A stretch of 64,000 bases of DNA from Humidesulfovibrio sp. Lineage in GTDB: Bacteria; Desulfobacterota; Desulfovibrionia; Desulfovibrionales; Desulfovibrionaceae. The DNA lies in assembly GCF_031082295.1 (NCBI RefSeq), contig NZ_JAVHLD010000013.1:1-64000 (forward strand), in the 5' to 3' direction. Below the pieces are notes generated by a model. The model did not search any database. It had not been told where the DNA came from and saw only the letters and a list, made by a program, of their open reading frames with translations. The translations under genes were made by a program, and so were the position numbers. Position 1 is the stretch's first letter, and every line of letters starts with the position of its first letter. This document shows, one piece after another, positions 32,355-62,833 of this stretch.

Positions 32355-33233
32355 TCAGGCCTCCTTCTTGTACATGATCGCACCGGGGTAATGGATGGGC
32401 TTGAACGAGCGGGTTATGTTGTGCAGAGACTCAGAGTGCCCGATGAGCATGTACCCGCCCGGCAACAGGTTGTCATAGAACGCGCCGATGACCTTCTTCT
32501 TCATCTCGTCGTCAAAATAGATGATAACGTTGCGGCAGAACACGATCTGTGAACGTTCCACGCGTTTGAGCGCCACACGGTCGGAGAGATTCAGCTGCCC
32601 GAAGGAGATGAGTCGCTTCAGTTCGGGCTTGATTCGGAAATTCTCACCGTCCTTGTCGAAATACTTCGGCAAAAGCTCCTTCGGCGTGGTGCGCAAGGTG
32701 TACTCGTTGTAGACACCCTTGCGAGCGGCCTCGAGGACTCGTTCGGAAAGATCGCTGGCAGTGATGCGCACATCCCAGCTTGACAACTCGCCCTTGAGCA
32801 CCTCGGCCACAATGATTGCCAGTGTGTAGGGTTCCTCTCCCGTGGAGCAACCGGCGGACCAGATGCGGAGGCGTTTGTCGCCTTTCTTGCGCAACTCGGC
32901 GATGACTTCGGTCAGGATATTCTCCTGAAACACCTTCAACTGGGGCGGGTTTCGGTAAAAACTCGTCTCATTGGTGGTGATGACCTCAAAAAGCTTGGTG
33001 AGTTCGGCCTTCTTGTTGGTGTCATACTGCAGGTAATGATAGTATTCGCCAAGGTTTTTAAGGTTCAACAACTTCAACCTGTTGGCCAAGCGATTCTCAA
33101 GCAGGTACTTGCGGTTGTCCGCAACATAAATGCCGCACTGAGCGTAGATGAAGTCTCGTAGTTGAACAAATTCAGCATCGCTGATCTTAAGTTCGCCGCC
33201 TACCGCAGATGATGTGGAAAAAAGAGCAGACAT
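32355..33233 (-). CDS. cheR: Chemotaxis protein methyltransferase CheR
   Basis: This 292-aa enzyme methylates glutamates on chemoreceptors with SAM. The N-terminal helical domain contains YVADNRKYLLENRLANRLK, followed by TTNETSFYRNPPQ, the SAM site IWSAGCSTGEEPYTLA, ASDLSERVLEAARKG and VIIYFDDEMKKKV, and a final LPGGYMLIGHSESL. Start ATG at 33233 directly abuts the stop codon of the HEAT gene (TAGATG) with GGGAG upstream. Length agrees with E. coli CheR (286). It has no C-terminal pentapeptide-binding oddity that I can see. Confidence 0.95.
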   Translation of the reverse strand: MSALFSTSSAVGGELKISDAEFVQLRDFIYAQCGIYVADNRKYLLENRLANRLKLLNLKNLGEYYHYLQYDTNKKAELTKLFEVITTNETSFYRNPPQLKVFQENILTEVIAELRKKGDKRLRIWSAGCSTGEEPYTLAIIVAEVLKGELSSWDVRITASDLSERVLEAARKGVYNEYTLRTTPKELLPKYFDKDGENFRIKPELKRLISFGQLNLSDRVALKRVERSQIVFCRNVIIYFDDEMKKKVIGAFYDNLLPGGYMLIGHSESLHNITRSFKPIHYPGAIMYKKEA

Positions 33234-35233: not shown

Positions 35234-36334
35234 CTATATATACAGATTATTCATAATGGCTTGAGCCATATCATCAATATCAACTATTTCGTCGGAAAGT
35301 CCAGCATCAACTATGGCTTTTGGCATTCCATATACTACGCAAGTTGCGTCGCTTTGGGCCAGGGCGCGACCGCCCTTCTGCTTTAGCGCGCGTATGCCTT
35401 CCATGCCGTCGTTGCCCATTCCAGTCAGAATGACGCCCAGCGCGCGCCGCCCCACGGAATCAGCAACAGAGCCGATGAGCACATTGGCCGAAGGTTTGTA
35501 AAGAGCGCTTGCAGGCTCGGAAGTAATCTCGAGGTCTATGCGGCTGATCATCTGCTTGATCATCAAATGCCTGCCGCCAGGAGCGATAAAGGCGCAGCCG
35601 GGCTTCAGGCGATCACCAGGCTCGGCCTCCTTGACGCTAATCTTGCACAAGCCATCAAGACGCTTGGCAAAAGGGCCGGTGAAGGCCTGTGGCATGTGCT
35701 GCGCGATGACGATGCTGGCAGGAAAGTCTGCAGGCAAGGCCGAGAGCACCTTCTGGACCGCTGGCGGCCCCCCCGTGGAAACGCCTATGGCCACCACGTC
35801 GCGCTTCGGCGAACCGCTGGGCTGGATTGGCGCAACTGAAGGCCGCGGCGCAGCAGCTGACGTGGCGGAGGACGCGGACGGCGTGTACTGTGGCGTCCGC
35901 ACAACGGGAGCTGAGACACGCGCCCTGGAATGCAGCATCTTGCGCGAGGCAACGATCTTGACCTTGGCGATAAGGTTGGCCTCGATCTTGACGATATCAA
36001 GCGAGACCTTGGACAGCTGTTTGGGGATGAAGTCAACGGCCCCAAGGTCCAGCGCCTTGAGAGTGGCCTCGGCGCCTTCGTTGGTCAGGGAACTGACCAT
36101 GAGCACCGGACGAGGCATTTCCATCATGATGTGGCGCAGGGCGGTGAGCCCGTCCATGCGCGGCATCTCGATGTCCATGGTCACAACATCCGGGTTATGC
36201 TTACGGATCATCTCAAGGCCTTCTTCGCCGTCGCGGGCTGTTGCCACAACGTCGATTTCTGGGTCCTTGGTAAGCATGGTGCTGATGGCTTTGCGCATGA
36301 AAGCCGAATCATCGACAACAACGACCTTGATCAC
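35234..36334 (-). CDS. cheB: Chemotaxis methylesterase CheB
   Basis: This 366-aa response-regulator methylesterase/amidase removes methyl groups from chemoreceptors. Its receiver domain (about 1-120) has VVVDDSAFMRKAI and VTMDIEMPRMDGL; an Ala/Pro linker follows; the esterase domain has VAIGVSTGGPPAVQKVL (catalytic Ser), IAQHMPQAFTGPFAKRL (His) and LTGMGNDGMEG (Asp). It begins with GTG (36334) behind AAGGAG, and is the first gene of the seven-gene che operon. No strong promoter is obvious in 36335-36521. Confidence 0.95.
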   Translation of the reverse strand: MIKVVVVDDSAFMRKAISTMLTKDPEIDVVATARDGEEGLEMIRKHNPDVVTMDIEMPRMDGLTALRHIMMEMPRPVLMVSSLTNEGAEATLKALDLGAVDFIPKQLSKVSLDIVKIEANLIAKVKIVASRKMLHSRARVSAPVVRTPQYTPSASSATSAAAPRPSVAPIQPSGSPKRDVVAIGVSTGGPPAVQKVLSALPADFPASIVIAQHMPQAFTGPFAKRLDGLCKISVKEAEPGDRLKPGCAFIAPGGRHLMIKQMISRIDLEITSEPASALYKPSANVLIGSVADSVGRRALGVILTGMGNDGMEGIRALKQKGGRALAQSDATCVVYGMPKAIVDAGLSDEIVDIDDMAQAIMNNLYI

Positions 36335-36521: not shown

Positions 36522-36598
36522 CGGGATGTGGCTCAGTCTGGTAGAGCGCCGCGTTCGGGACGCGGAGACCGGAGGTTCAAATCCTCTCATCCCGACCA
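36522..36598 (+). tRNA. tRNA-Pro (anticodon CGG)
   Basis: The 77-nt cloverleaf runs from CGGGATG to CATCCCGACCA, with a perfect 7-bp acceptor stem and an encoded CCA. The anticodon arm CCGCG-TTCGGGA-CGCGG gives anticodon CGG (proline, codon CCG). The T-loop GGTTCAAATCC is canonical. Phage genes begin just beyond its 3' end, as expected for an integration site at a tRNA gene. Confidence 0.95.
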
Positions 36599-36607
36599 GA
36601 CAAATCA

Positions 36608-36640
36608 AGGGCTTGCGGCATAAACCGTAAGCCCTTTTTT
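36608..36640 (+). terminator. Intrinsic terminator after tRNA-Pro
   Basis: The hairpin AGGGCTTGCGG / CCGTAAGCCCT (one G-T pair) is followed by T6, 10 bp after the tRNA end. It may be bacterial or supplied by the prophage end. Confidence 0.85.
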
Positions 36641-36993: not shown

Positions 36994-38043
36994 CTATGCT
37001 GCCGTGAAAATGTTAACCGAGCCAGCGCCGCCAGCACCGCCGTCGTCCCCAATGCGTCCAAGGCCCCCGACACCGCCAGAAGCCCGCACAGTGCCTAAAT
37101 TGCTGTACCCGCCTGGGGCGGTGACAATGACCACGCACCCGCCACCCGCACCGCCGCCGCCCGAACTACCAGCAATACGGCTGTCATTACCCCCGCCTTT
37201 GGCCCCATCAGCACTAATAATGCACCCGGAGGCTACAGATACTAATGGTGAGAACAGCATCAGCAACCCACCGCCAGCCCCCGTACCAGCAGAAAGAGAG
37301 CCAGTACCAGCACCAACTGGGTCGCCAGCACCGCCGCCAGCATTTGCGCCAAGACCCGCAGAACCTGTGGCACCATAAGCACCAGCGTCCGCGCTAGGCC
37401 CTGGGACGCTGGCAACACCACCGGAACCAGCTCCACCGCAGCATGGACCACCCTTGCCGCCAGCCCCAACTGATACCGTCCCACCGCTTTGTGGAGCGCC
37501 CGTTGCACCTCCGCCAGTCTGCATAGCAGATGCCGCAGACCCAGGATGCCCATTGTTGTCTCCTGAAGCTGTCCATCCGGCAGCGCCAGCAGCGCCCTCC
37601 CCAAGAACTATATAGCCCGCGAGACTACGCTTGAGCTTGCGCTGGATATAGGCTGGCACGATGTCAAACACGGTGACGTTGCCGAAGTTCCCGGCTTTGC
37701 CCAGCTTGTCGATGTTGATTTTTCCTCCGTTTTTCAACTCCACCGAAACAGACGAAAATACGATCAGCCCTTTGCAGTTAGCGCTGACCGTGAGCGTTCC
37801 GCCGTCCACAATGAGCTTTTTACACATGAGAACAGCGGCCTCAGTGATTGTGTCGATGTCCAGTGTGGCCGAGCCAGTGACGGTCCAGGTGCCGTCGCTG
37901 TAGCTGACCACCCCGGTGATGTTGCCAAAGGCCGAGCCATCACCGAACAGCGACTGTGTCCCCAGCGGACCGGGAGGAATCCCCCCGACCCCTCCGGGCC
38001 AGCCACCGCCGCCTTCATGCGGTGACATGATGAGGCTAGGCAT
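36994..38043 (-). CDS. Glycine-rich phage tail/fibre protein
   Basis: This 349-aa protein has an N-terminal Gly/Pro-rich start, a beta-rich central part (about 40-150, with ITGVVSYSDGTWTVTGSATL) and a C-terminal half dominated by Gly, Ala and Ser (GGKGGPCCGGAGSGGVAS, GGGGAGGGCVVIVTAPGGYS). Gly-rich domains of this type occur at the tips of tail fibres and form polyglycine helix bundles that bind host receptors. The start at 38043 overlaps the preceding stop by 8 nt; an ATG at 38028 is an alternative. Confidence 0.65.
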   Translation of the reverse strand: MPSLIMSPHEGGGGWPGGVGGIPPGPLGTQSLFGDGSAFGNITGVVSYSDGTWTVTGSATLDIDTITEAAVLMCKKLIVDGGTLTVSANCKGLIVFSSVSVELKNGGKINIDKLGKAGNFGNVTVFDIVPAYIQRKLKRSLAGYIVLGEGAAGAAGWTASGDNNGHPGSAASAMQTGGGATGAPQSGGTVSVGAGGKGGPCCGGAGSGGVASVPGPSADAGAYGATGSAGLGANAGGGAGDPVGAGTGSLSAGTGAGGGLLMLFSPLVSVASGCIISADGAKGGGNDSRIAGSSGGGGAGGGCVVIVTAPGGYSNLGTVRASGGVGGLGRIGDDGGAGGAGSVNIFTAA

Positions 38044-38476
38044 CTGCGAATTTCCAGCCGCGAGTCTGAATCCACGCGGTCTTGCCAGAGGTCAGCGCGG
38101 CGTTGAACTTCGCACGCAACTTCCAGCCAGCGGGGATGATGAGGAACTTGTTTCCGGCGATGTCGGCCTGGACGATGCCCGCCATGTTCGCGTGACCGAG
38201 CACGTTCGTCGGAGGAGTGGCCCCATCAGACTTGCTACCAGCAGTTATCGCAGTCGGAACATTCGTGATCTGGTAGTCATTGGTCCCGTCGTGCAGATAC
38301 AGGTTGCACAACGCGACAGCAGTATCGTCGGTGGCGATGGTGATGCTGTCGATGCGCTGATCGACACCAGCGGTAACAGTCGTAAGGTCTGCCTCGGTCG
38401 TGGACGAAGCAGCGGGGAAACTGACCAGATTACCAATAGCAACGCCAGCGTAAATCGGAGTGGTGTTGACAGCCAT
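38036..38476 (-). CDS. Phage structural protein, probably tail-associated
   Basis: This 146-aa, beta-rich soluble protein (MAVNTTPIYAGVAIGNLVSF...; AGWKLRAKFNAALTSGKTAWI) has no signal peptide or membrane segment. Its position between the gp17-like fibre gene and the Gly-rich tail protein suggests a tail spike or baseplate-decoration role. GGAGG precedes the ATG with 9-base spacing. I do not recognise the family. Confidence 0.6.
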   Translation of the reverse strand: MAVNTTPIYAGVAIGNLVSFPAASSTTEADLTTVTAGVDQRIDSITIATDDTAVALCNLYLHDGTNDYQITNVPTAITAGSKSDGATPPTNVLGHANMAGIVQADIAGNKFLIIPAGWKLRAKFNAALTSGKTAWIQTRGWKFADA

Positions 38477-38478
38477 GA

Positions 38479-39390
38479 TTATGCACCTCCACAGGTTGCT
38501 TGCAGTACAAGGTTGGCGGCCACTGTGAGGCTGGCCGGGACGTCTGGAATATCCGCATTTGTTGGAACCTGGTCTGGATCGGTCCCTATATCCACCCGAA
38601 AAACAAGCACCTCATTTCCACCAGGATTAAGAGTGGACACAAGCAGTCCGGAATTGGAAGCCAGACCAAGCTTTTGGCCAAGATATCCCGACGCCGCATC
38701 CGTTGCGCTTATCATCACCGTGCCGACCGCCGCAGCGGCCTCGTCCGCGCTGTCCGCAGCGGCAGCGGCAAAGCCTTCGGCTGCATCCTTGGCGGCCACG
38801 GCCGCGAGTTCGGCGTCCTCGGCGTTGGTTTCCGCAGTCTGCGCGGCCTGGGCAAAGCCTTCCGCGCTAGAAATCTGCGTCGTTGTCGGCCCATTGACCA
38901 GGGCGTTTGCCGATCCGTTCCATGTCAGCACAGCGTTGGCCACGGGGCTGGGCACGGAAAGGGTGGCCCCGGAATAGGACACCGGCAGCGCCAGGCAACG
39001 ATTGATCTGCTCCTGCAGGGCGAGGCAGACCATGATGGCCCGGTCCAGGCAGTCCTCCAGCGGCTCGGCCGGCACACCGTCGCCGGGCTGGAAATCCGTC
39101 TCCTGGGTCATTCCCGGCACGCGTCTGGCGGTAAGGGTCCAGCCCGTAGGCAGCACTGGATAGGCGCTCCCGGCCAAGGGGAACGTCAGCGTGCCGCTGG
39201 ACTCCCCGGCGCCCGTGAGGCTGTAGTCCACGCCTTGCACAAGCGGATATTCCACGTTGGGCGTCACCAGGGTGTTGGTGATGATGGCCACCACGTCCGC
39301 GTCCTGCTGGAAGGGAAAGCGCAGCGGAAAGCTCGTGGCGGCATCGTTGCCGGAATAGTCCTCGCGGTTTTTATCGGTGGAGAACGCCAT
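38479..39390 (-). CDS. T7 gp17-like tail fibre N-terminal protein
   Basis: This 303-aa protein begins MAFSTDKNREDYSGNDAATS and continues with YPLVQGVDYSLTG and LTARRVPGMTQETDFQPGD, a beta-rich segment shared by phage tail-fibre N-termini that attach to the tail tube. A later Ala/Glu-rich stretch (about 165-225, EGFAQAAQTAETNAEDAELA) is a coiled coil, a trimerisation shaft. The receptor-binding tip is probably carried by the separate downstream proteins, as this one is much shorter than T7 gp17 (553 aa). Its start shares a base with the giant gene's stop (TAATG). Confidence 0.75.
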   Translation of the reverse strand: MAFSTDKNREDYSGNDAATSFPLRFPFQQDADVVAIITNTLVTPNVEYPLVQGVDYSLTGAGESSGTLTFPLAGSAYPVLPTGWTLTARRVPGMTQETDFQPGDGVPAEPLEDCLDRAIMVCLALQEQINRCLALPVSYSGATLSVPSPVANAVLTWNGSANALVNGPTTTQISSAEGFAQAAQTAETNAEDAELAAVAAKDAAEGFAAAAADSADEAAAAVGTVMISATDAASGYLGQKLGLASNSGLLVSTLNPGGNEVLVFRVDIGTDPDQVPTNADIPDVPASLTVAANLVLQATCGGA

Positions 39391-42300
39391 TACTTAGCCT
39401 CCTTGGGTGCGCGGAAGAACAGGCGCATGGGGTTTACCGTCTTGCCCTCGGCCATGTCGTGGACGCCCTGCACCGCCCGCCAGATGGGCCGGGTGGGAAT
39501 GCCCACGCTGAAGCCGACCAGATCCACCAGGGACTGCGCCGCCAGCAAAAACTCGCCGTCCCTATTCTTGCCGTCAAGCAGGTTCATCGTGCGTTGCACC
39601 AACTTGCCTACGTCCTCCACGGGCTTGAGGGCCGCGGCGCCGCTCGCGCGGCCGCCGAACTCGATGGAGCGCACACCCTCGCGGATGAGGGGCAGGCCCG
39701 AAAGCAGGTAGCCGAACAGGTCAAAAAACAGGTCGCGGAACTCCGGCCAGGGCTCGCCCTTGGCCCAGGCGATGATGCACGAGGTCAAGAGCGGCGGCAG
39801 CACCCAGGAGAGCATGACGTGGCGCATAAAGTCCTGGCTGGAGATCATGCTCTCGCGCCAGCCCCGGATGAAATAGGCCTGGTTGTTCAGCAGATTGGCC
39901 GAGAAGGACATGAACATGGAGAACAGCCTGGCCACGCCGGCGGAGCGCAAAAAGGTCGGCGCGTCCACGATGCCGCCGCTGGCCTGAGCGCGCTTGACCT
40001 TTTCGTCCGCGTAGGCAACGGCGCTGGCCGGGTCCATGCCGCGCTGGTTCAGGGCCTGGTCGTAGGCGCCGTACCACGTGGGATAGGCCACCAAAGCGTC
40101 CATGGTCTGGATGAGCGAGAACATGAAATCCTGGTAGTCCTTGACCGTGAGGTTGATGCCGACCTTTTGCAGCAGCTTGATCTGGTGCTTGTCCAGGTCG
40201 AGCCGCATCACCAGGTCGTGCATGGTGGAGTCAAGGTTGTGCCTGCGGTCGGCCATGTAGGGCGAAAGGTCCGCAGCCACGGCAAAGGCGTCGGCCCCGT
40301 GCTCGGCCATGATGGCCGCGCCCTTCATGAAGGCCTTGAACCCGATTTCCTGCCAGGACATGGACGCGCTGGAGAGCTGGGTCAACGCCGTCTGCATGGA
40401 CAGGCCAAGGGCCTGCAGGCTGCCCAGCACGCGCAGTTTCTCGAACATCTTGTCGAACTTGCCCGGCATGACCAGGCTGGGCCGGGCCTGGCGGCGCAGC
40501 CAGTTGCCCAGCTCCATGTATGAGTCCTCGCCCAGCGCCTTGACCCAGGCCGTGCGGAACTCGGGCACGGCCACCAGCTTGTAGGCGTTGCGCAGGGGCA
40601 GGCCGTAGTGGATGAAGTGCAGGCTGGAATTGATGTGCGAGGACAGCACGCCGAGGGACAAAAGCGGCGGCAGGCTGGAGCCCTTGCGCTCCTTGGTGAA
40701 GGAGTTGACCGGGTTGGACTTGCGGAACACGGCCGCCGTGTGCTGGATCTCGTCGGCGTAGGCTCCGGTTTCCACCTCGTTCATGAGCTTGTCCAGCCCG
40801 CCCAGGAAGGCGGCCTTGTCACTCAGGCGATGGTCGAAGATGAGCGGAAAGTACCCGCCGCGCAGGTGCCCGGCCGGAGAATCCAGGGCCAGGGGCTCCA
40901 CCTTGATGAGCGGCCCGCCGTTGACCACGCGGTGCACGTGGTCGATGAGCGGGTAGAGCTCGTCGATGGTGTCCCAAATCTGTTGCACCATGCGCCATTC
41001 GTCGGCGGTCAGGCGCTCGGTGATCTTGGCCAGATGGTCGTAGGTCCAGCCGTAGCCGCCCATAAGCGCGCGGATGTTGCCCTCGTTGCCCATGTTGAGC
41101 GCCACCATGAGCACCTTCTGGCGGTCCCACAGGCCGCCCCACTCCTGGGCCACCTCGGCCCGCAGCGGCACGCCCTCGATCTTGAACACCTCGGCGCGGT
41201 CCTGGGCCAGGTAGGGCTCGAATATCTTGTCCAGCTTGTCGCCCATTTGGCGCAGGGCGTGCTGCTTGTCGCTCTCGGCCTGGTCAAAGGGATGCACCAG
41301 GTAGGTGGTGGTATTCCCGGCCTTGGAGTTGGGCCCGTGGTTGGTAAAGCCGTCCGCCGCGTCGGCCCAATAGCGCACCATGCCCAGCTCGGCCATGAGC
41401 CCGCGCGCCCGGATGAGAACCTTGCGGCTTTCGCGCTCGCGCTCGGAATAGGCCTTGGGCCCCTTGGTCAGCTGGTTCATGGTGACGACCGAGCGTTCTG
41501 CCACGTCGGTGATGAGCAGGTCCTCGGCCAGGCCCAGCATCTTGCGCTCGTTCACGCCCTGGTGGTGCAGATAGTTGAGGGCGCCCTTGAGCTCGCGCAT
41601 CTGCGCCACGGTCATGGTCTGCACCGAGCGGAAGCCGGACTGCGGCTCGGAGAACAGCCAGGCCGGAATCTCGGCCAGGGCCGCCACGTCGATGCCCTTT
41701 TCCTGCACGAACTGCAGCAGGGGCGGCATGTCGTAGGGCATGGCCGGGGCCATGGTCGGCGTGCCCAGGCCAAAGCGCTGGACGATGGCCATGGCCTGCT
41801 CGCGGTAGTCGAAGTCCATCCGCTTGGAATAGAAAATCCGCTTGGACAGGTCCTTGAGCTTGGACATTTCCTCCCGCGCCTGGGTGCGCTCGCGGATCTC
41901 GGCCAGGGCCAGGCGGCGGCGCTCGTTGGCCTCGGACACGCGCTCGGCCCACTTTTCGCGCAGGACCGCGACGCGCGCCTTGTCCACCTCGCGCTGCTCC
42001 TTGACGGCCATGTTGGCCTCGTTCTTGAGCGCCACGGCCAACAGGAACTTGTCCTGCTTGATCTGCTGGCCGACCTTGGCCACGGCGGCCTTGAGGTTCT
42101 GGAAACTGGATTGCAGCTGGGCCACGGTCATGTTCTCGACCTTGCGCGACACCATGCGCTTGATGCCTTCCATGCTGGCCGGAACGAAGTTGCGCGTCAG
42201 GCGCTGGAGCATGCGGGCCTCGGCGTCCAGGCGCCTCTCCTGCAGCTCGTTGGCCCACGGGGTGCCGTACTCGTTCCAATCGGCATCGAACTGCGCCAAA

Positions 42301-45300
42301 CCGGACTCCACGAAGGCGCGGCGCTGCTCGCCGCCCTTGAAGTTCAAGGCCTCCAGCACGGCCTCGGGCGAGTCGAACTCGAACTCGATCATGGCCTGCT
42401 CCACGGTGTAGGTGGAGTCCTTGGACAGAAGCCCGGGCCGCACGCGCTCGTTCACGTCCTGCCCCCACAGATAGCGCGCGCTTTCCAAGTTAATCTTGGG
42501 TCCTGGCTTGTAGTCTTTGGCTTTGCGGTCCGGGCGCTCCTGCATCAGGGGGTCGTAGTTGTAGGCCAGGTAGGTGACGAGGCGATAGGCCTTGTTGTTG
42601 CGCAGCTCGTCGTCGAAGTGCTCCACCAGCTGCTGGCGGTACTTGCGGCGCTCGGCCTCGTGGTACTTCTGCATTTCGATGTCCGCGGCGAGCGACGCGC
42701 GGTTGGCCAGCGTCTCGTAGGCGTCCAGCTCCTGCCTGGTGAGCACGGACTCGTCCAGGCTCGTCTCTCCGGCAAAGATGGGCTCCAGGCCGTACTTGTT
42801 GCGGGCGCCGTCCAGTTCTTCCTGGGTGGCCAGCATGCGGTCGTACACGCCCCGGATCTCGGGGTTGATCTTGACGCCGGCGCCGCGCGCGGCCTTGTAC
42901 AGGGCCAGGAGCCAGCGCTTGAACTTGGCAAAGACCTCGTACATGGCCTCGGTGGGGGCCTTGCCTTCGCGCAGGTAGGTGAGGAAGCCGTTGGCGAACC
43001 GCTCCTGCCCTTCCTCCGAGATCCGCTCGTCCTTCTCGCGCAGCCAGGCGCGGATGGTGGCCAGGTCCGCCTCCTGCTGGGCCGTGGCGTGGCCCAGGCC
43101 GACCAAACGCTCCAGCTCGGTCAGGTACAGGTGCCCGCTTTCGTGCGGCACGGTGGAGACGTTGGCCTTCTCGAACGTGCTGATGATGGTCTGCCCGTGC
43201 TCCCAATGGATGGCGCCGTACTTGCTGCCTGCCATGCTTTGATACAGCGCCTGGCCATCGGCCACGGTCTGGCGCAAGGCCGGGGTGATGGTCAGGGAAT
43301 GGACCGAGATGTTGCCTAAGCGCTCTGCCTCGGCCCAGGCTTCCGCAGCGGTGTTGTGGCGCGAAAGAATGTCCGGCGAGTCCCGGCGCTCCAGGCGGTA
43401 GGGTTGGGACTGGCTATCTCGGTTGACCTTAAACTCTCCGGCGTCAAGGTTCGTCTCCCCCACCTTGGCGCTGGGGTCCAACTTCTTGACGTACTCGGCC
43501 ACGGCCTTGGGCAACATCTTGTCGTAAAAGCCCTTCATTCCACCGCCGCCGATGTCCAGACCGTTGCCGGACTCCTTGCCCTCGGCCTCAGCCATGATCT
43601 TTTCAGCCATGGGCTTGCCAATAGCTTCATCCAGCGGCTTGTTCACCAAACCGTCAAAAGCCCTGTTGCGCGAGTCAACGCGGCCAATCGTTCCGTCAGC
43701 GCCGATAAACAGGTCTGCCTGGGCACCATCGGTCGTCACCAGCGTTGCGATTCTTTGTGGCCCGCCACCGTTCTGGCGCCAAGCGATACTTTCCAGAGAA
43801 GCACTCAATTTATACCGCGCGGCCTGCTGCTCGCCCGTGGTCCAGGCCACGGCGTCGTAGCCCTTTTCCACGGCCTCGCGCAGGATGCGCTTGAAGGCCA
43901 GCATGGCCCAGGATTTTTTGAAGGGGGCGTTAGGCACGCCCACAGTACGCTTGCCTTCAAGCCTCACTTTTTCATCGTAAATTTCATAGTATAGGTTATT
44001 GGCCTGCTGCTTCTCCGCTTCTGTTGGCAGTTGGTCCGCAGAGCGTCCGTCTAACAAGCGGTCAAGTTCGGCTTGAAGCGCGTCAAGTTTGGCTTGGCTT
44101 CCCGCCACCAATTCCTGGGAATATCCCTTCTTCCGCCCTGCCTGGTGCCAATCGCTTTGGATCTCCTCGATGAACAGCACACGGTTGCCGTCCGCGTCCA
44201 TGCGGTCGTTCAGGCGCACGTGGGCCAGGACGTTGGGCTCCTCCCAATGCGGTGAGCGGTACACATCCGGGCTTGCCGCCGCGGTGATCTTGCCCTCCTT
44301 TGGCACCATCACGCCACGGTCGTAAAAGCCACGTACTTCGGCGTCGGTCGCCTTTGCCTGCGGGAAACGCGCGCGATAATCGGTCAAGAACTGCGCAAAG
44401 GTCATGTCCGTGCGCTGGCTCGGCAGCGTCAGCAGCACCTCGCGGTAGTTCTCGCCACCGGGGAGTTGGTAGCTGGCAAACTTCGGCGTGTTCGCCGTGC
44501 TGCCAGTTTCCTCGTCGATGCCTTCCCAGGCTTCTTGAATACGCGCCGCCTCGTCCCAATTTCCCGCCGCCTCGGCTTCATTGATAGCCTGTTGCCACTC
44601 GTTGCCCGTATAGTTGTATTTGCTGTTGCTGCGTTTGGTGATTTCCTCCAGCCTCGGCCCGCCTTCCTTGATGAACTGGAGCACCTGCTCCTTGCTGATC
44701 TTCGCGTCGGAGTCCTGGGCCACGCGGATGTAGTGCTCCAACCCAAGATCGGACAGTTCCTCGGGGCGCAGTCCTGGCTTGGGCGTGCCGTTCTTGTCCC
44801 AAAACTGACTGAGCCAGAACTTGGCCGGCTGAGGCTTCTTGACGTTGATGCCTTCCAAAAAGCGCGCCGTGGGCGAGTAGAACGCGGGCGCCGACTGAAA
44901 GAACAGCCGCCCCTCGTGGTCCTTGACACCTTCGAGCATAGACAATACTGTCATTTCGGAAATGCCAACTGCTGGCCGCGTGGGACTCTGGCTCTTGCCG
45001 GAAGAAGGCGCGGAGGTACCGGTTGGCATCTTCTTTTCCGAGCGCAGGTCATACAGCCGGAAGTCCTCCAACTCCTTGACGCCCTTCTCGGCCTCCTTCA
45101 CCGTCAGCTTGACCACGTAGATGCTGTCGCCCACGCGCACCGGGGAGTACAGGCGATGCACCTGCGCCACGCCGGCCTGCTTCTTCAAATCCAGGTGGGT
45201 TTCCACCAGCACCGCGTTTTTCACGATGTCCGAGAGCACCGTCATCACCTGCACCATGGCCGGGTAGTGCCCCTCGTCCGGGTGGTCCTGGGCCACGTGG

Positions 45301-47966
45301 CGCGCGCCGCGCTCGGAAAGGGCAATGTTCCATCCCGTGTCCGTGTTGACCACGTGGCCCACGTGCTGCTTGGTGTTGGCCAGGGCCTGCTTGCGCATGG
45401 CGGCCTTGTGCATGTTCAGGTCTATGGTCTCGCCGGCGTCCAGCACCGGCACGGATCGGTTCAGGTCCACGTCCTCGTTCATGGGCGCCTGGAACAGCGG
45501 TCCCTCGATGTGCGTCTGGCCGTCGTCCACCTGGTTGCCCAGGCGCTCCAGCCTGGTCTGGTCGCGGTCGATGGCCGCCGAAAGCGCCGCGATGGAATCC
45601 TGGTTGGCCCCGTCCGCGCGGGCCATTTCCTCGGCCAGCTTGGCCTGATAGCCCTCAAGGCGCGTGCGCACGTTCTGCATGATCTCGGCAATGGGCACGG
45701 CCACGCGGTTGCCGCGCTGGATGTCGCCCTGCTGCTGGCCGCCTTCCTGGTCCGCCACGGGCGCGAGGTCCGCAGCGCTCACGCGGTCGCCAAAGCGGCG
45801 CTTGAAGGACTCCAGGCTGTCGGCCTGGATGCGGATCTTGTTGCGCTCGAACCAGGCGGCCGGGGTTTCGTGCCCGCTTTGGGTCAAGGTGCGCGCGAGG
45901 TTTCCGAACAGGCTGGCGGTCATGATGGCCTGGTTCTTGGACACGCGGCCCGTGGCCATGAGCTCCCCGGCCAGGCGGTCCACCTCGTGCTGGGGCACCT
46001 GGGCCTCGTCAAAGGCGCGGGCCAGCTCCTGGATGCGCACCTGCTCGGCCTCTATGTCCAGGCCAAGGGCCTGGCGCGCGGAAATGTCAAAGGCGTTGAC
46101 CTTGAGGTCCGGGGCCAGGGCCTCCCAATGCCTGCCCTGCGCCAGGGTGGAGGCCACCTTGTCCGTGGGCAGGGCCAGGTCGGCGTCGATGGCCTTGGCG
46201 TGGGCGTACTCGTCCTGGCTGATGCCCATGACCTCCAGCACGCGCATGGCCTCGTCCATGGCGTCGGCCTGCTGGAAATAGCCGTCAAAGGCCCGCGCGT
46301 TGATGAACAGAGGCGGCGCCTCCTGGCCTTCCGGGGTGCCGGTCATGGTGCGCACGGCCTGCTCCACGGCCTCGGGGCTGCGCTGGGCCAAACGGTTGGC
46401 ATCAAGCGTGGTTTTGAAGTCGTTGAGCTTGGCCTCCACCACGCGGGCGCGCGCCAAAGACTTGGCCGTGCGGAACATGCCAAGCCCGGTGCCGGCGCCG
46501 ATGAGCGGCAGGAAAGACGCGCTGGCGTCCACCACGGTCTGGCCCACGCGCTCGCCCTTGGCCTGCTGGCTCATGGGCTCGATATAGTTGCCCGGGGCCT
46601 GGGCGTTGTGCATGTCTTTGGCCAGTTCCCCGAAGTAGATTGTCACCAGCTCCTGCAGGCCCTCCTGGCCAGACTCCAGCAGCCAGGCCCACACGCCCTT
46701 GGCGCCGATGCGCGCCATGAGCGCGCGCGTGCCGGGCAGGCCCATGCCCTTGACCACGGCCTCCTTGACGAACTGGCGCTTGGTGGCCTCGCTCAGTCCG
46801 CTCACGGCCTTGCTCACGCCGGTCATTTCCAGCAGCACGGCGAGCTCGGCAGCCTCGATGCCGGCGTTGACGGCGCCGGTGAGCACGGCCATGCCGCGCG
46901 CCAGCTTAAAGTCGATGGGCTTGCCGGTGTTGGCATCGGTGTAGCCCATGTATTCCTCTAACGCGCTGCCGCCTTCCAGCTTGAACATGCTGTAGTAGGC
47001 GCCTGCCCCTGCCCCCACCTTCATGCCGCGCTCCGCGGCCACGGCTGCGGAGGCCGGGTTTTTGGTGGCGGCCAGGGTGGTGCCGTACATGAGCGCGCCG
47101 CCGGCCAGGGAGGGCCAGCCGATATCCGGCAGCATGTCGCGGTACTGCGCGGCCTGCACCACGCCGCCCGTCAGGATCTTCTCCAGGTAGGACTCGGCCT
47201 TGGGCACCTGGACCTGGGCCAGCTTCATCTGGCCGATGGTGCGCCGCAGTTCCGGGCGGTCGCCCTCAAGCAGCAGCTGCGAATAGGCGAAGGCCAGGGC
47301 GTCCTGCTGCCTGCCCGCCTCCCAGGCCTGGCCCGGGGCGCTGGCCAGCCAGGCCACGCCGGTGCGCTCGTCCACGGGCCTGTTCTTCTGCCAGAAGCGG
47401 TCCCACGCGCTCCAGGGCGAGGTGTCGCGCGCGGCCTGGGCCGCCTGCACGCCGGGCCAGAGATCGGCAAGGGAGTTTTCCAGGCGCTGCAGGGCCGCCA
47501 CGTCGTCCTTGGCCAGGGCCATGTTGGCCGGGTCGGAAAGGAACAAGGCCGTGCCGGGGTTGTCGCGGGTGAGCTCGGGCACGTTGGGGTCCGGGTACTT
47601 GGCGATGTCGCGCACCTGGGCTAGGTTGGCCTGCACAAACGGCTCGGGCAGGCTGGTCTGCCTGGCCAGGCTGCGCACCTCGGCCACCTGGTCGGGGGCC
47701 ATGTTGCCCGTGCGCTTGAAGGCCTGGACCACGTTCTCGGCCAGCACGTCCGGGGCGATGGGCTCCAGCGGCTTGAGGCCGAAAGGCATGGCGCCGGGGA
47801 ACTTGGGGGCCTTGTCCGCGCGGGCCTGGTCCTCGGCCTGCAGGCCTTCGATCAAGTCAGGGGCGGTCCGCTGCACGGGCGCAAAGTCCACGGGCAGCAT
47901 GGTTTCGGTGCCGCTGGCCTTGTCGCCTTCCAGCACGTCAAAGAGGTTTTTTACTGCGCCAGCCAT
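39390..47966 (-). CDS. Giant 2858-aa internal virion / polyvalent ejection protein (T7 gp16 position)
   Basis: This 2858-aa protein occupies the T7 gene 16 slot, so it is probably the large ejection protein that enters the host with DNA. Modules seen: a barnase/EndoU-like nuclease-type domain resembling LPD3/PBECR of phage polyvalent proteins (about 845-985; SERGARHVAQDHP, YSPVRVGDSIYVVKLTVKEA); a conserved phage module (about 1215-1520; VLFIEEIQSDWHQAGRKKGY); a zincin segment STVPHESGHLYLTELERLV with HExxH at 1608-1612; long charged coiled coils (about 1960-2070); and C-terminal hydrophobic helices (about 2718, VMLSWVLPPLLTSCIIAWA, and LFGYLLSGLPL). No transglycosylase motif like that of T7 gp16 is seen. 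T7 gp16 is 1318 aa. It overlaps the gp15-like gene by 16 nt. Confidence 0.8.
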   Translation of the reverse strand: MAGAVKNLFDVLEGDKASGTETMLPVDFAPVQRTAPDLIEGLQAEDQARADKAPKFPGAMPFGLKPLEPIAPDVLAENVVQAFKRTGNMAPDQVAEVRSLARQTSLPEPFVQANLAQVRDIAKYPDPNVPELTRDNPGTALFLSDPANMALAKDDVAALQRLENSLADLWPGVQAAQAARDTSPWSAWDRFWQKNRPVDERTGVAWLASAPGQAWEAGRQQDALAFAYSQLLLEGDRPELRRTIGQMKLAQVQVPKAESYLEKILTGGVVQAAQYRDMLPDIGWPSLAGGALMYGTTLAATKNPASAAVAAERGMKVGAGAGAYYSMFKLEGGSALEEYMGYTDANTGKPIDFKLARGMAVLTGAVNAGIEAAELAVLLEMTGVSKAVSGLSEATKRQFVKEAVVKGMGLPGTRALMARIGAKGVWAWLLESGQEGLQELVTIYFGELAKDMHNAQAPGNYIEPMSQQAKGERVGQTVVDASASFLPLIGAGTGLGMFRTAKSLARARVVEAKLNDFKTTLDANRLAQRSPEAVEQAVRTMTGTPEGQEAPPLFINARAFDGYFQQADAMDEAMRVLEVMGISQDEYAHAKAIDADLALPTDKVASTLAQGRHWEALAPDLKVNAFDISARQALGLDIEAEQVRIQELARAFDEAQVPQHEVDRLAGELMATGRVSKNQAIMTASLFGNLARTLTQSGHETPAAWFERNKIRIQADSLESFKRRFGDRVSAADLAPVADQEGGQQQGDIQRGNRVAVPIAEIMQNVRTRLEGYQAKLAEEMARADGANQDSIAALSAAIDRDQTRLERLGNQVDDGQTHIEGPLFQAPMNEDVDLNRSVPVLDAGETIDLNMHKAAMRKQALANTKQHVGHVVNTDTGWNIALSERGARHVAQDHPDEGHYPAMVQVMTVLSDIVKNAVLVETHLDLKKQAGVAQVHRLYSPVRVGDSIYVVKLTVKEAEKGVKELEDFRLYDLRSEKKMPTGTSAPSSGKSQSPTRPAVGISEMTVLSMLEGVKDHEGRLFFQSAPAFYSPTARFLEGINVKKPQPAKFWLSQFWDKNGTPKPGLRPEELSDLGLEHYIRVAQDSDAKISKEQVLQFIKEGGPRLEEITKRSNSKYNYTGNEWQQAINEAEAAGNWDEAARIQEAWEGIDEETGSTANTPKFASYQLPGGENYREVLLTLPSQRTDMTFAQFLTDYRARFPQAKATDAEVRGFYDRGVMVPKEGKITAAASPDVYRSPHWEEPNVLAHVRLNDRMDADGNRVLFIEEIQSDWHQAGRKKGYSQELVAGSQAKLDALQAELDRLLDGRSADQLPTEAEKQQANNLYYEIYDEKVRLEGKRTVGVPNAPFKKSWAMLAFKRILREAVEKGYDAVAWTTGEQQAARYKLSASLESIAWRQNGGGPQRIATLVTTDGAQADLFIGADGTIGRVDSRNRAFDGLVNKPLDEAIGKPMAEKIMAEAEGKESGNGLDIGGGGMKGFYDKMLPKAVAEYVKKLDPSAKVGETNLDAGEFKVNRDSQSQPYRLERRDSPDILSRHNTAAEAWAEAERLGNISVHSLTITPALRQTVADGQALYQSMAGSKYGAIHWEHGQTIISTFEKANVSTVPHESGHLYLTELERLVGLGHATAQQEADLATIRAWLREKDERISEEGQERFANGFLTYLREGKAPTEAMYEVFAKFKRWLLALYKAARGAGVKINPEIRGVYDRMLATQEELDGARNKYGLEPIFAGETSLDESVLTRQELDAYETLANRASLAADIEMQKYHEAERRKYRQQLVEHFDDELRNNKAYRLVTYLAYNYDPLMQERPDRKAKDYKPGPKINLESARYLWGQDVNERVRPGLLSKDSTYTVEQAMIEFEFDSPEAVLEALNFKGGEQRRAFVESGLAQFDADWNEYGTPWANELQERRLDAEARMLQRLTRNFVPASMEGIKRMVSRKVENMTVAQLQSSFQNLKAAVAKVGQQIKQDKFLLAVALKNEANMAVKEQREVDKARVAVLREKWAERVSEANERRRLALAEIRERTQAREEMSKLKDLSKRIFYSKRMDFDYREQAMAIVQRFGLGTPTMAPAMPYDMPPLLQFVQEKGIDVAALAEIPAWLFSEPQSGFRSVQTMTVAQMRELKGALNYLHHQGVNERKMLGLAEDLLITDVAERSVVTMNQLTKGPKAYSERERESRKVLIRARGLMAELGMVRYWADAADGFTNHGPNSKAGNTTTYLVHPFDQAESDKQHALRQMGDKLDKIFEPYLAQDRAEVFKIEGVPLRAEVAQEWGGLWDRQKVLMVALNMGNEGNIRALMGGYGWTYDHLAKITERLTADEWRMVQQIWDTIDELYPLIDHVHRVVNGGPLIKVEPLALDSPAGHLRGGYFPLIFDHRLSDKAAFLGGLDKLMNEVETGAYADEIQHTAAVFRKSNPVNSFTKERKGSSLPPLLSLGVLSSHINSSLHFIHYGLPLRNAYKLVAVPEFRTAWVKALGEDSYMELGNWLRRQARPSLVMPGKFDKMFEKLRVLGSLQALGLSMQTALTQLSSASMSWQEIGFKAFMKGAAIMAEHGADAFAVAADLSPYMADRRHNLDSTMHDLVMRLDLDKHQIKLLQKVGINLTVKDYQDFMFSLIQTMDALVAYPTWYGAYDQALNQRGMDPASAVAYADEKVKRAQASGGIVDAPTFLRSAGVARLFSMFMSFSANLLNNQAYFIRGWRESMISSQDFMRHVMLSWVLPPLLTSCIIAWAKGEPWPEFRDLFFDLFGYLLSGLPLIREGVRSIEFGGRASGAAALKPVEDVGKLVQRTMNLLDGKNRDGEFLLAAQSLVDLVGFSVGIPTRPIWRAVQGVHDMAEGKTVNPMRLFFRAPKEAK

Positions 47967-49855
47967 GCCTGCTGCCCCTTCTTAAAGAGATAGTCCGGGC
48001 CGTACTTGGCCAGGGCGTCGCGTTCGATGCGTTCAATGGTGCGCTCGTTCACCGGGTACTTGTCCTTGCGGCCCGCGTTCAGCTCGTCCATGAGGCTCAT
48101 GACGCCCTGCCGGATGATAAGCGAGTCCTTGCCAAGGGTCTGGTAATACTTGAGCGCGGCCTCGTCGCTGGGGATCATGCCCAGCTTGGACATCTGTTTG
48201 GCCGTGGGCTTCAGGTCCGCCCTTTCGCCCGTGAATTGCGCCAGCCCGCCGCCGTAGCGAGCGGAGCCAAAGGTCGTTTTGTCGCCGCTGGAGCCGAACA
48301 GCCCGCCCCAAAAACCGGGACCGCTGCCCCATGTGGTGCGGCCGGTGACGACCGGGGCGGTGTACTTGTCGGCCACCTTCTGCATGTCCGCAGGGCTCAT
48401 GCTGGGGTTTCTGCGCACCTCGTCCTCGTAGGCCCGCAGCGTGCGCACGTACTCGCCATTCTGCTTGACCTCGTTGTCGTCCTTGGGCTTGTCGTGGAAG
48501 GAAAGCCCGGCCGCGCCCGCGGACTGCTTGAACGCCTCGTAAGCGGGCTTCATGTCCAGGCCATCGGAAACGATCTTGGTCCAGTGGTCGCGCCGGGCGG
48601 TGGAAAGGGAAGGCGCGTGCTGCGCCAAAAGCTGCCAGCCCTGCGAGGACAAGCTGCCGTTCAGGCTGGCCTGGAACATGGCATAGTCTGCGGCCGCGGC
48701 CTGGGCTTCGTTTTGGGCCTTCATGCTGTTCTGCATGAAGGGGATGACGTGCCCGGCGGCCGCTGGGTTTTGCTTGGCAAACTGCATCCAGGCCTCGGGC
48801 GAGACGTCGCCCTTGTTCTCCATCCAAAAACCGACCAGCTTTTTGCTGGCCGCCTCGTTGGCCAGGCTGCGCGCGCGGTCCTGCTGCCCCTGGAGGTAGT
48901 GGGCGCGGCCCTCGGCCAGGGCCATGACGTTGCGCCAGGTGTCGCCCTTGAGGCCCTTGGACGCCACGTAGTTGGCATCGTTCAGTAGGGCCACGGCCTT
49001 GGCCGGGTTGTTGCCGGCGTCGGCCATGACGCCGAAATAGGTGTCCATGTTGGCCGTGTTCTTCTCCTGCACGCGCAGAGTGGTCACGGCGTGGGCCTGC
49101 ATGTCCGGCGAAATCTTGTCGCGGATGCCCTCGGTGAGCTGCTGGCCGTCCTTGCCCTTCTGGCCGAACAAAAGTTCCTTGGCGTAGGCAAAGTCATCCT
49201 TGTCGCCGTAGGCCAGGGCCAGGTTCAGCGCGTGCCCGTAAATGTCCTGCTGGGCCAGGATCAGGCGCTTGGTGTTGTCCTCGCCCGGGTGCGCGGCGTT
49301 GATGGCGTTGGCGGCCTTGACGTACTCCGCCTCCACTCCGGCCACGTCGCCCCACTTCAGAGCCACGCCCTGCCTGGCGGCCTGCACGGCCCCGTCGGAG
49401 ACGCTTTCGGCGTAGAGCTTTTTCTGCTGGGCTTGGTGCAGGCTCACGGCGTCCAGGCCCTTGTCGCGGTTGGAGCCGATCATCTTGGCCAGGAGCAGCT
49501 TCTGGCGCTCGTTCGGCACGGCCTCCAGGGTTTTCTGCGCCTCCTCGTCGTACCACTGGATGGCCTGGTCGTAGACCGCGGGCTTGTCCTGGCCGCCGAG
49601 GGCATCCTTGCCCTGCGTCTGGCGCACCTTGTCCAGCATCTGCCGCTCGCGGTCGGCAAAGGAGTTGTGCGTGTCGATTACCTGCAGGGCGTCCTGGCGC
49701 TCCTGGTCCTGCTTCATGGCCTCGATCACTTCCTTGGGCAGAAGCTCCCGGCCAAGGTTGGGGTCGCCATAGTCCGAGGGCTTTGCGAACACGCCGGCGC
49801 CGGACTGCGGAAGGCCTACAGTAGGGCCGACAGGGGAATCAGGAATCTTGACCAT
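47951..49855 (-). CDS. Internal virion protein, T7 gp15-like position
   Basis: This 634-aa, mainly alpha-helical Ala/Gln/Lys-rich protein lies between the gp14-like gene and the giant gp16-position gene, where T7 has gp15 (747 aa), a core and ejection protein. Segments such as NERQKLLLAKMIGSNRDKGLD and RDHWTKIVSDGLDMKPAYEAF are helical; no membrane segment or enzyme motif is seen. The C-terminal end overlaps the giant gene by 16 nt. Identity rests on synteny and character, not on a strong motif. Confidence 0.7.
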   Translation of the reverse strand: MVKIPDSPVGPTVGLPQSGAGVFAKPSDYGDPNLGRELLPKEVIEAMKQDQERQDALQVIDTHNSFADRERQMLDKVRQTQGKDALGGQDKPAVYDQAIQWYDEEAQKTLEAVPNERQKLLLAKMIGSNRDKGLDAVSLHQAQQKKLYAESVSDGAVQAARQGVALKWGDVAGVEAEYVKAANAINAAHPGEDNTKRLILAQQDIYGHALNLALAYGDKDDFAYAKELLFGQKGKDGQQLTEGIRDKISPDMQAHAVTTLRVQEKNTANMDTYFGVMADAGNNPAKAVALLNDANYVASKGLKGDTWRNVMALAEGRAHYLQGQQDRARSLANEAASKKLVGFWMENKGDVSPEAWMQFAKQNPAAAGHVIPFMQNSMKAQNEAQAAAADYAMFQASLNGSLSSQGWQLLAQHAPSLSTARRDHWTKIVSDGLDMKPAYEAFKQSAGAAGLSFHDKPKDDNEVKQNGEYVRTLRAYEDEVRRNPSMSPADMQKVADKYTAPVVTGRTTWGSGPGFWGGLFGSSGDKTTFGSARYGGGLAQFTGERADLKPTAKQMSKLGMIPSDEAALKYYQTLGKDSLIIRQGVMSLMDELNAGRKDKYPVNERTIERIERDALAKYGPDYLFKKGQQAWLAQ

Positions 49856-49864
49856 GCGCGCCTC

Positions 49865-50521
49865 CTAGCCGTTTAGCTGCCAGTAGCGGCCGCCAGCGGT
49901 GAGCAAAGACTCCGTGCCTGCGGAGGCGGACTTGTTGGCCGCCAGCGTGGCCTCGCGCTGCACGCCCGGGATCTGGTTGCGCAGCTTGGTGGCTGCTATT
50001 TCCGCATTCCAGCGGATGAGCGCGGCGTCGTCCTCCATGGCCTGGTAGGTGTCCTCCAGCACCATGAGCGGGCTGCCCTCGTTGACCTTGACCCCGGAGG
50101 CGCCAAAGCCCGCCTTCTGCTTGCCGGCCAGGGCCATGTACTTCTTGCGCACGGTCTGCTCGTCCATCCTGCCCTTGGCCAACTGGAACTGCGCCTCGTT
50201 CTCCAGCAGGGCGGCGTTCATGGCGCCGATGCTGCGCTGGCCGGCGGCCACGTTGCGCCCATTGATGAACTGAGCCAGGCCGCCGATGCCGAGCGCGGCC
50301 TTGAGCACGTTGGTGGAGGTCGTCTTGTCGGTGAAGTGGTCCCACCAGGAGCCGCCGCCGGAGGTCAACCCGGGCGTGCCCGTGTCCGCCGGGGCCGGTC
50401 CTGGCCCGGTCCATTCGCCCGAGGCGGTCCAGGGGGTGTCCTCGTACAGGGGCGTGGAATCCACGAGGCTGCCGGTGGACGGACCGGCATCGACAGGTAC
50501 GGCAGGAGTTTCCCAGGTCAT
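49865..50521 (-). CDS. Internal virion protein, T7 gp14-like
   Basis: This 218-aa protein has a Pro/Gly-rich N-terminus, a hydrophobic helix (VLKAALGIGGLAQFINGRNV) near residue 75, then an alpha-helical part with AGKQKAGFGASGVKVNEGSP and DDAALIRWNAEIAATKLRNQ, the pattern I associate with T7 gp14/virion core proteins that form the outer-membrane pore during ejection. T7 gp14 is 196 aa. It starts 2 bp after the gp13-like stop. Confidence 0.75.
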   Translation of the reverse strand: MTWETPAVPVDAGPSTGSLVDSTPLYEDTPWTASGEWTGPGPAPADTGTPGLTSGGGSWWDHFTDKTTSTNVLKAALGIGGLAQFINGRNVAAGQRSIGAMNAALLENEAQFQLAKGRMDEQTVRKKYMALAGKQKAGFGASGVKVNEGSPLMVLEDTYQAMEDDAALIRWNAEIAATKLRNQIPGVQREATLAANKSASAGTESLLTAGGRYWQLNG

Positions 50522-56250: not shown

Positions 56251-57081
56251 TTATTTTTTGTCCATGCTGGGGAAGTTGAGCATGGGCGCGCCGTCCTTGG
56301 TCCTGGCGGCAGTGGCCGGGCCGCCGCCCCTGGCACCGCCCAGCGAGTCCTCGCTCATGCGCTCGGCCGCGCGGCTGAGAAGCATGAGGAAGGGAGCGCT
56401 GGAACCGATGAGCGGGTTGCGCGCCCATTCCACGATCTGCTTGTCGTCTCCGGCCAGGGCGTTGAACGCGCGCTTGGCGTGGTCCAGCTTCTGGTCGAAG
56501 TTGGCGCCCCAGCCGCCCTCCTTCTCGGGCTTCTGGAGCATCTGCTTGCCCTGCTCGTTGGCCTTGGCTTTGGCTTCGGCCTCGGCCGCCTGGTGCTTCT
56601 CGCTGGCGTCCTTGAGGAATCCGTTCTGCCATTCGGCCAGGCCCTTGACCTGCTCCTTGGTCAGCTTCAGCTCCAGCGCCTTGGCGCGGAAGCTGCCGCT
56701 GTACGCCTCGTCCACCGTCATGCCTTCGGCCACGGGGATTTCGTAGGCGTCCGCGCTTTCCGGCGGCTTGGGCAGCGCCTTGAGCTCGCCGTCCATGTCG
56801 TGGAAGCGCTTCAGGAAGCCCGCCAGGTCCTTGTGGCCCTTCAAAGCCTCGGACCCACGCAGCTCCTCGGGAATTGCGTTCTTTAGTTCTTCCGGCAGGG
56901 AGTCGAAGAAGCTGGCGCCAGCGCCGGCTCCTCCCGCTCCCTGGCCCTCGGCCCCGGTCCCGGCGCCGTTTCCGGCCCCGTCGTTGCCGCCCTGGTTCAG
57001 GTTGGCGTTTCCTTCCGTTCCGGCGCCCTGGCTCGCGGTGTCATCCGCTCCGGCAGCACCATCATTCAGCAGGGTGTCCAT
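56251..57081 (-). CDS. Capsid scaffolding protein
   Basis: This 276-aa protein has a Gly/Ala/Asn-rich flexible N-terminus (about 1-55), then a helical region (SLPEELKNAIPEELRGSEAL; KDASEKHQAAEAEAKAKANE) and a charged end. Such composition and its position just upstream of the major capsid gene are typical of internal scaffold proteins that are lost on maturation. It overlaps the Bbp19-like gene by 20 nt. No protease motif is visible. Confidence 0.75.
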   Translation of the reverse strand: MDTLLNDGAAGADDTASQGAGTEGNANLNQGGNDGAGNGAGTGAEGQGAGGAGAGASFFDSLPEELKNAIPEELRGSEALKGHKDLAGFLKRFHDMDGELKALPKPPESADAYEIPVAEGMTVDEAYSGSFRAKALELKLTKEQVKGLAEWQNGFLKDASEKHQAAEAEAKAKANEQGKQMLQKPEKEGGWGANFDQKLDHAKRAFNALAGDDKQIVEWARNPLIGSSAPFLMLLSRAAERMSEDSLGGARGGGPATAARTKDGAPMLNFPSMDKK

Positions 57082-61781: not shown

Positions 61782-62062
61782 CCAGGATGATGGTTGGCGC
61801 AGTTGGTTTCGACGATGGTTTGGCGTTTATCAAGGTTATTCAAATCCTTGCGTAGTTTGTCGAACTCCTCCCACGGCACGCAGTCCTTGTCCGTCTGGCG
61901 CTGGCGGGCGTCGATGGCGGCGATAAGCGCCTTGACCTCGGCAAAGCCGGCCTTGATGTCGTCGCTGATGCTCACCCGGTCCGAGCGCAGCAGATAGGCT
62001 ATGATACCGAGAAGAATTAATATTACCGCGCCGGAAACTCCGAGTGCCCATTCCGCGCTCAT
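61778..62062 (-). CDS. Small single-span membrane protein of the lysis cassette
   Basis: This 94-aa protein has one N-terminal transmembrane helix (WALGVSGAVILILLGIIAYLL) and a charged C-terminal part (WEEFDKLRKDLNNLDKRQTI) that may form a coiled coil. It sits between the i-spanin gene and terS with ATGA overlaps at both ends. It might be an accessory holin or an antiholin; it lacks definitive motifs. Confidence 0.65.
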   Translation of the reverse strand: MSAEWALGVSGAVILILLGIIAYLLRSDRVSISDDIKAGFAEVKALIAAIDARQRQTDKDCVPWEEFDKLRKDLNNLDKRQTIVETNCANHHPG

Positions 62063-62631: not shown

Positions 62632-62833
62632 GGTTCACCCCCATGGTGTACAGGTCGTTCCAGGCGTGGATGAGCTCCGGCACCTGGGCAAAGGGCAGGG
62701 CCTCGACCTTGATGCCGCAGGAGCATTCCAGGCTGGCGCCGTCCGGGCCGGACACGAGCAACGGCAGTTCCCCGCAATGGCAGCGCACGGTGTGCAGGGG
62801 CTTGTTTGTCTCTCCGGCGATGAACACGCTCAT
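62621..62833 (-). CDS. Small Zn-ribbon-like phage protein
   Basis: The real protein is about 70 aa (MSVFIAGETNKPLHTVRCHCG...), starting at 62833 where ATGA overlaps the transglycosylase stop. Two CxC pairs, CHC near residue 18 and CSC near 43, suggest a zinc-binding fold. It lies within the lysis cassette; function is unknown. Confidence 0.65.
   Translation of the reverse strand: MSVFIAGETNKPLHTVRCHCGELPLLVSGPDGASLECSCGIKVEALPFAQVPELIHAWNDLYTMGVNHAD

Follow-up and report, generated by a model that had tools for sequence, protein, structure and literature searches.

The question raised by this locus is what a protein of 2858 residues, encoded at the T7 gp16 position of a prophage, may do and how its several modules are put to use. 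The window analysed is a stretch of 64,000 nucleotides from Humidesulfovibrio sp., which is a sulfate reducer (contig NZ_JAVHLD010000013.1, positions 1 to 64,000). As claimed in the preliminary description of the window, the giant gene is a single uninterrupted frame; it runs over 39390..47966 and was placed on the minus strand. The gene shares 16 bp with its upstream neighbour (47951-49855) and 1 bp with the fibre gene that follows (38479-39390). An ortholog of 2769 aa, present in two IMGVR viral contigs (L004/L005), aligns with the product end to end at 69% identity. Measured against L004, dN/dS is 0.24 for the whole protein, 0.14 for the C-terminal part, 0.20 for the zincin and 0.41 for the fastest-evolving portion, here called the EIQSDW segment, so that every part is under purifying selection. 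GC3 of the gene is 0.89, with a drop from 0.93 to 0.72-0.81 across residues 901-1500. Taken together, the full-length ortholog, the overall dN/dS and the GC3 value indicate that the frame is real and coding.

The gene sits in what is apparently an intact temperate T7-like prophage of ~42.9 kb, a length delimited by flanking exact repeats of 91 bp, one within a tRNA-Pro gene (repeat 36547..36637, plus strand; locus 36522-36637) and its identical copy at contig positions 79412-79502. The far prophage end encodes a tyrosine integrase (78262-79389) and an S24-type repressor (72414-73154). The prophage adjoins chemotaxis genes of the host (CheB, CheR) and a gene for a HEAT-repeat protein (35234-36334 and 32355-33233, minus strand). 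Also, a lysis cassette with a second peptidoglycan hydrolase and an Rz-like spanin lies upstream of the terminase genes (62830-63495 and 62059-62631, both minus strand), and two proteins of 349 and 146 aa, possibly related to the fibre tip or host range, are encoded past the fibre gene (36994-38476, minus strand) and matched no Pfam or PHROG family.

The structural genes follow the order terS, terL, portal, scaffold-like, capsid, gp11-like, gp12-like, gp14-like (phrog_418), transglycosylase-type protein (phrog_10475), giant gene and gp17-like fibre. This order bears out the earlier placement of the giant gene between the gp15-position and gp17-like genes, and the recurrence of the same core order in BPP-1 and in Cobetia phage Carin1 confirms the T7 gp16 position. 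The internal virion protein of the gp14 slot (49865..50521, minus strand) was assigned by its PHROG, phrog_418, whose Carin1 member also matches the T7 gp14 family phrog_805. The gp15-slot protein (47951..49855, minus strand) carries a transglycosylase-type segment (phrog_10475 endolysin) and has family members in BPP-1 (bbp11) and Carin1 (gp33), and the tail fibre protein (38479..39390, minus strand) has a gp17-like N terminus. T7 gp16 is indeed a protein of 1318 aa with a transglycosylase (SLT) domain, as the preliminary description stated, and the giant protein resembles it in position, with core proteins on one side and the tail fibre on the other. However, T7 gp16 carries the transglycosylase itself, whereas the giant protein has no N-terminal domain of this type and the match falls instead in the neighbouring gp15-slot protein (47951-49855). 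No homology between the two was detected (hhalign probability 0.4%, no shared PHROG). From the synteny we infer, soundly in our view, that the giant protein would be ejected with the DNA. In GenBank, giant relatives (H2-H27) carry the labels lysin, lysis protein or crystallin beta/gamma motif protein, although it is the neighbouring gene that has the lytic domain.

Along the chain the modules are ordered as LPD22, LPD3, the EIQSDW module (~550 aa), the zincin and a conserved C-terminal body. LPD22 (residues 85-170; 47457..47714, minus strand; Pfam PF18834, E 1.2e-12) had been missed by the preliminary description and is present in the ortholog L004 too. The C-terminal structural body (residues 1723-2858; 39393..42800, minus strand) is common to BPP-1-like podoviruses and matches phrog_9880 (E 1.1e-158), the whole match spanning residues 1565-2846; the hydrophobic helices reported in it are there, though of no more than moderate strength (mean hydropathy peaks at 1.75 and 1.61). 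At least two unrelated catalogued domains (LPD22, LPD3 and the zincin) thus occur in one large polypeptide, encoded among virion genes. The protein therefore joins the phage polyvalent proteins as a new member, with a module set of its own, and its description as a giant gp16-slot protein of the polyvalent kind that bears a zincin and LPD modules is supported by the slot, the Pfam matches and the conserved active site. It resembles the proteins defined by Iyer et al. in 2017 (PMC5512222) in size, multi-domain build, virion-gene context and possession of an MPTase/zincin, LPD3 and LPD22, and differs from them in that its EIQSDW module lies outside Pfam.

None of the phage records covered 80% of the giant protein. 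BPP-1 Bbp10 (2052 aa) occupies the same slot after the gp14-like and transglycosylase proteins, shares the zincin and C-terminal body (25.5% over residues 1595-2851) and has FYQ ahead of its own zincin; it is shorter, however, and carries other N-terminal cargo, leaving LPD3 and the EIQSDW module unmatched. Carin1 gp32 (2854 aa) agrees in slot and size and matches in its N-terminal part, zincin and C-terminal body, yet identity is 26% over 48%, the middle modules are others and YNQ precedes the zincin where the giant protein has LYQ.

The zincin is of the CLCA_X/polyvalent type (residues 1583-1722; 42801..43220, minus strand), has a conserved active site and is covered by the phrog_9880 match, which begins at residue 1565. 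Its model contains helices at 1605-1623, 1629-1642 and 1651-1667. The HESGH motif read earlier at residues 1608-1612 (43131..43145, minus strand) was recovered there, HExxH being invariant in eight divergent relatives, and the assignment of a zincin module is upheld at the sequence level by this motif together with an invariant downstream Glu. H1608, E1609, H1612 and E1655 are all unchanged in 8/8 divergent relatives, and E1655 (43002..43004, minus strand; E66 of alignment A1), 43 residues past the second His, is probably the likelier third zinc ligand. The CLCA_X family was seeded on Bbp10 residues 700-1000, the homologous domain, with a published consensus of HExxHxxxD (PMC3650047). The giant protein departs from this consensus in reading HESGHLYLT, with Thr as the ninth residue where Bbp10 and Carin1 have Glu, and conforms to the CLCA_X/polyvalent type in having HExxH and a conserved downstream acidic ligand.

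A barnase/EndoU-like region had been proposed at residues 845-985, with an RNase effector role. The region is the Pfam domain LPD3 (residues 855-963; 45078..45404, minus strand; PF18798, E 1.3e-21), and it matched no nuclease family, those of the BECR/PBECR group included, LPD3 alone being recovered. The structure model of LPD3 (pLDDT 77) had no significant match in the PDB, the best being NTF2-like at E 0.05, and no nuclease fold was recovered, so that the RNase role is not supported. Given that the model matched nothing significantly, the RNase claim is to be regarded as unproven rather than excluded. LPD3 has been counted among the domains of elusive function (PMC5512222). That it is a divergent BECR-type RNase is unlikely in our judgement, even though the model shows helices followed by a four-strand sheet, compatible with BECR topology, and LPD3 accompanies PBECR domains in Helicobacter phages (PMC5512222). 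Against it stand the missing nuclease family match, the top fold hit being an NTF2-like protein below significance, and the conserved residues H110, E131, G135 and Y145 (alignment A5), which are not an obvious fit to PBECR domains as published, where the first helix supplies a His and the C terminus a Thr/Ser. An alignment of six sequences proved too divergent; one of three sequences was usable.

LPD3 behaves as a cassette. The segment comprising residues 827-1018 (44913..45488, minus strand) is missing from the 69%-identical ortholog L004, the gap matching these limits almost exactly, and L004/L005 carry an insert of ~75 residues after residue 749. In other gp16-slot proteins (L115, L136, L137, L160, L162) LPD3 stands directly before the zincin, and in G014, of the same genus, the LPD3 and EIQSDW module types are reversed, within a different kind of protein. 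A single-protein scan of viral contigs with LPD3 gave no matches. A protein of ~3150 aa, found in L086 (from the host's genus) and L209, has the EIQSDW module and LPD3 in reversed order and is zincin-free, with MFA/MLS standing where Gln would be at its module ends.

The conserved polyvalent module described earlier at residues 1215-1520 proved to be the core of a larger unit, ~1029-1577, delimited here as the EIQSDW module (residues 1029-1570; 43257..44882, minus strand). The unit (~550 aa) is widespread in phage and prophage giant proteins from many bacterial phyla (loci L006-L083, L208-L287), with strongly conserved motifs (EEIQSDW, P-APFKK, GMKGFYDK), and it also exists as a separate gene that begins VKG-FYS. 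The module lies outside all Pfam families, and NCBIfam gave no match for the proteins tried. A model of the module together with the zincin reached a mean pLDDT of 85 and had no PDB match at E <= 0.001, while the module model matched predicted phage polyvalent proteins with E down to 5e-32. Two assignments of the module were rejected: GNAT (no Pfam match, GNATs recurring at E 0.4-1.7, below significance) and endolysin, the phrog_7348 label probably deriving from another part of that 2564-aa family.

Inspection of the junctions revealed a common element. The giant protein contains exactly three [LMI][FY]{1,2}Q sites, at 824, 1021 and 1574, and each lies between modules. The first, L824-F-Q826 (IEGP-LFQ-AP; 45489..45497, minus strand), precedes LPD3; the second, L1021-F-F-Q1024 (HEGR-LFFQ-SAP; 44895..44906, minus strand), marks the LPD3/EIQSDW boundary; and the third, L1574-Y-Q1576 (DGQA-LYQ-SMAG; 43239..43247, minus strand), the EIQSDW/zincin boundary. 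Different codons are used at the three sites (CTGTTCCAG, CTGTTCTTTCAG and CTGTATCAA), hence their likeness is one of protein and no DNA repeat is involved. The ortholog L004/L005 retains GPLFQ and ALYQ. The delimiter site falls in a lower-confidence coil of the model and its spacing to the zincin varies among relatives, suggesting that it is a linear motif.

Gln at such sites was found to be associated with a zincin across relatives. Among 123 non-redundant large proteins, the ends of local alignments, that is, the mosaic boundaries, cluster at L[FY]Q (z 14) and are not concentrated at the controls L[FY]E/N/K/G or Q[FY]L. A conserved N-terminal helix motif, VPAxxLxxLFQ, which is no delimiter, accounts for some of the raw L[FY]Q excess; raw enrichment, inflated in this way, was therefore discarded as sole evidence and tests at homologous positions were relied on. 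Of 57 zincin proteins sharing less than 50% identity, 46 have phi-x-Q no more than 18 aa ahead of the zincin start, against 13.2 +- 3.2 expected at random positions; in the same set none of E, N, S, K, D and G exceeds chance at that place. The domains upstream of the zincin are unrelated among zincin proteins.

The EIQSDW module offers a homologous position at its end (ITPxMR...GxP-L[FY]-X), where X is Gln in all 12 zincin-bearing proteins and in 10 of 69 zincin-free ones (Fisher 9e-9), the zincin-free proteins having mostly S, A, G, K, R or L. Eight of the ten zincin-free Gln cases read LYQ, most continuing as LYQQ, and leaving this LYQQ group out the counts become 12/12 versus 2/61. At the module start, phi[FYL]Q is found in 9/14 zincin-bearing proteins versus 2/61 zincin-free ones (8e-7). 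Zincin-bearing rows are scattered on the module tree (14 changes, at least 4 of them forced by supported branches), and the supported independent phylogenetic pairs gave 4 as predicted and 0 opposite, too few for significance (sign test p 0.125). The regular-expression definitions of the motif were refined in the course of the analysis. L233, a protein of the genome set that played no part in defining the rule, carries FFQ ahead of the module and PLFQ ahead of the zincin, and in L009 and L019 the module end lies away from the zincin, yet Gln is kept.

The association has exceptions in both directions. In L041, LFQ sites and a module that ends in MFQ occur without HExxH, and the zincin-free LYQQ clade retains Gln; conversely, the zincin is present and the motif missing in L268/L284, and L137 and L201 have K or H where Q is expected. 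The L041 protein (L041_2216_13891) is a phage protein of 3891 aa that may contain a protease of a different kind or be cleaved in trans. Also, no delimiter precedes the zincin in either P1 DdrB, which is reported to be processed, or N4 vRNAP, reported to be packaged uncut, and for this reason the Gln rule is not extended to all polyvalent zincins.

On these comparisons of sequence we hold it an evenly balanced proposition that the giant protein is a polyprotein whose zincin cuts at the Gln delimiters, separating the modules of its own chain, a reading better supported here than the effector role against host defence proposed at first. Judging from synteny, the C-terminal body would replace T7 gp16 in the internal core and exit the head with the DNA, and the N-terminal half would consist of exchangeable cargo modules (LPD3, EIQSDW). 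The built-in zincin would recognise short phi-[F/Y]-Q sites between modules and cleave after Gln, and cleavage, presumably during assembly or after injection, would free the cargo from the zincin and structural part to act on its putative targets. Cutting after Gln by the zincin would account for the gain or loss of Gln by cassettes according to the chain that hosts them. The broader proposal, a class of true polyproteins with a phi-[F/Y]-Q code, a built-in zincin taking Gln at P1 and cassettes that gain or lose Gln according to the recipient, is advanced more tentatively, with somewhat less than even confidence. Zincins usually depend on P1', and a specificity for Gln at P1 would be unusual. 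Autoproteolysis as such has been predicted for polyvalent zincins (PMC5512222).

Alternatively, phi-[F/Y]-Q could be a linker feature with no role in proteolysis: it might cap a domain, serve as a docking motif or be a trace of module exchange. The boundaries do coincide with mosaic break points, and L[FY] ahead of the variable residue is conserved in zincin-free proteins as well, suggesting that LF/LY itself is structural. Yet it is Gln, not LF, that tracks the presence of the zincin, the differing codons leave no DNA-level repeat and the spacing to the zincin is variable, all of which make this explanation doubtful.

It is rather unlikely that the sites are cut by another protease, of the host or a phage protein acting in trans, the zincin doing something else. 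Gln at P1 is typical of 3C-like enzymes and not of known zincins, and T4-type prohead proteases cut after phi-x-E motifs, both of which favour such an enzyme, as does the retention of the motif without a zincin in L041 and the LYQQ clade. A prohead protease cutting after an AxE motif (PMC10052503) points the same way. Nevertheless, Gln tracks the zincin of the same chain at homologous positions, and no prohead protease was recognised among the head genes. The sole candidate for a head protease as cutter, an acidic Ala/Gly-rich protein encoded between portal and capsid (56251-57081, minus strand), was rejected, given that it looks like a scaffold and that the 'protease' label of its phrog_458 match appears to be wrong.

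The preliminary description saw in the zincin an injected effector cutting host proteins, which would render the linker sites incidental. Such a role is allowed for polyvalent zincins by Iyer et al. (PMC5512222) and the active site is intact, but constraint on the zincin (dN/dS 0.20) is like that on the body and tighter than on the faster-evolving cargo module (0.41), and the zincin is kept across the family as the neighbouring cargo varies, making this role improbable. That the protein is purely structural, an ejection protein whose cargo domains have decayed, is very improbable, for although no part evolves faster than the EIQSDW module (dN/dS 0.41) and the ortholog does without LPD3, purifying selection acts on every part and the module motifs are strongly conserved across phages.

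It was proposed in 2017 that the metallopeptidase splits polyvalent proteins so that their unrelated enzymes act separately after injection (PMC5512222); a cut site or inter-domain motif was not found in the text of that work, and the Gln delimiters are undescribed in the literature as far as searched. If the polyprotein reading is true, they would supply the missing polyvalent cut site, together with a zincin of picornavirus-3C-like site preference. The delimiter gives exact predicted termini here and in dozens of related proteins, module limits becoming readable from sequence, and the role of the zincin, the commonest domain in polyvalent proteins, becomes directly testable. Zincin-free giants (L087, L212, L218, L234, L241) often flank the EIQSDW module with [LMR]FS, not LFQ, which could represent a second delimiter type.
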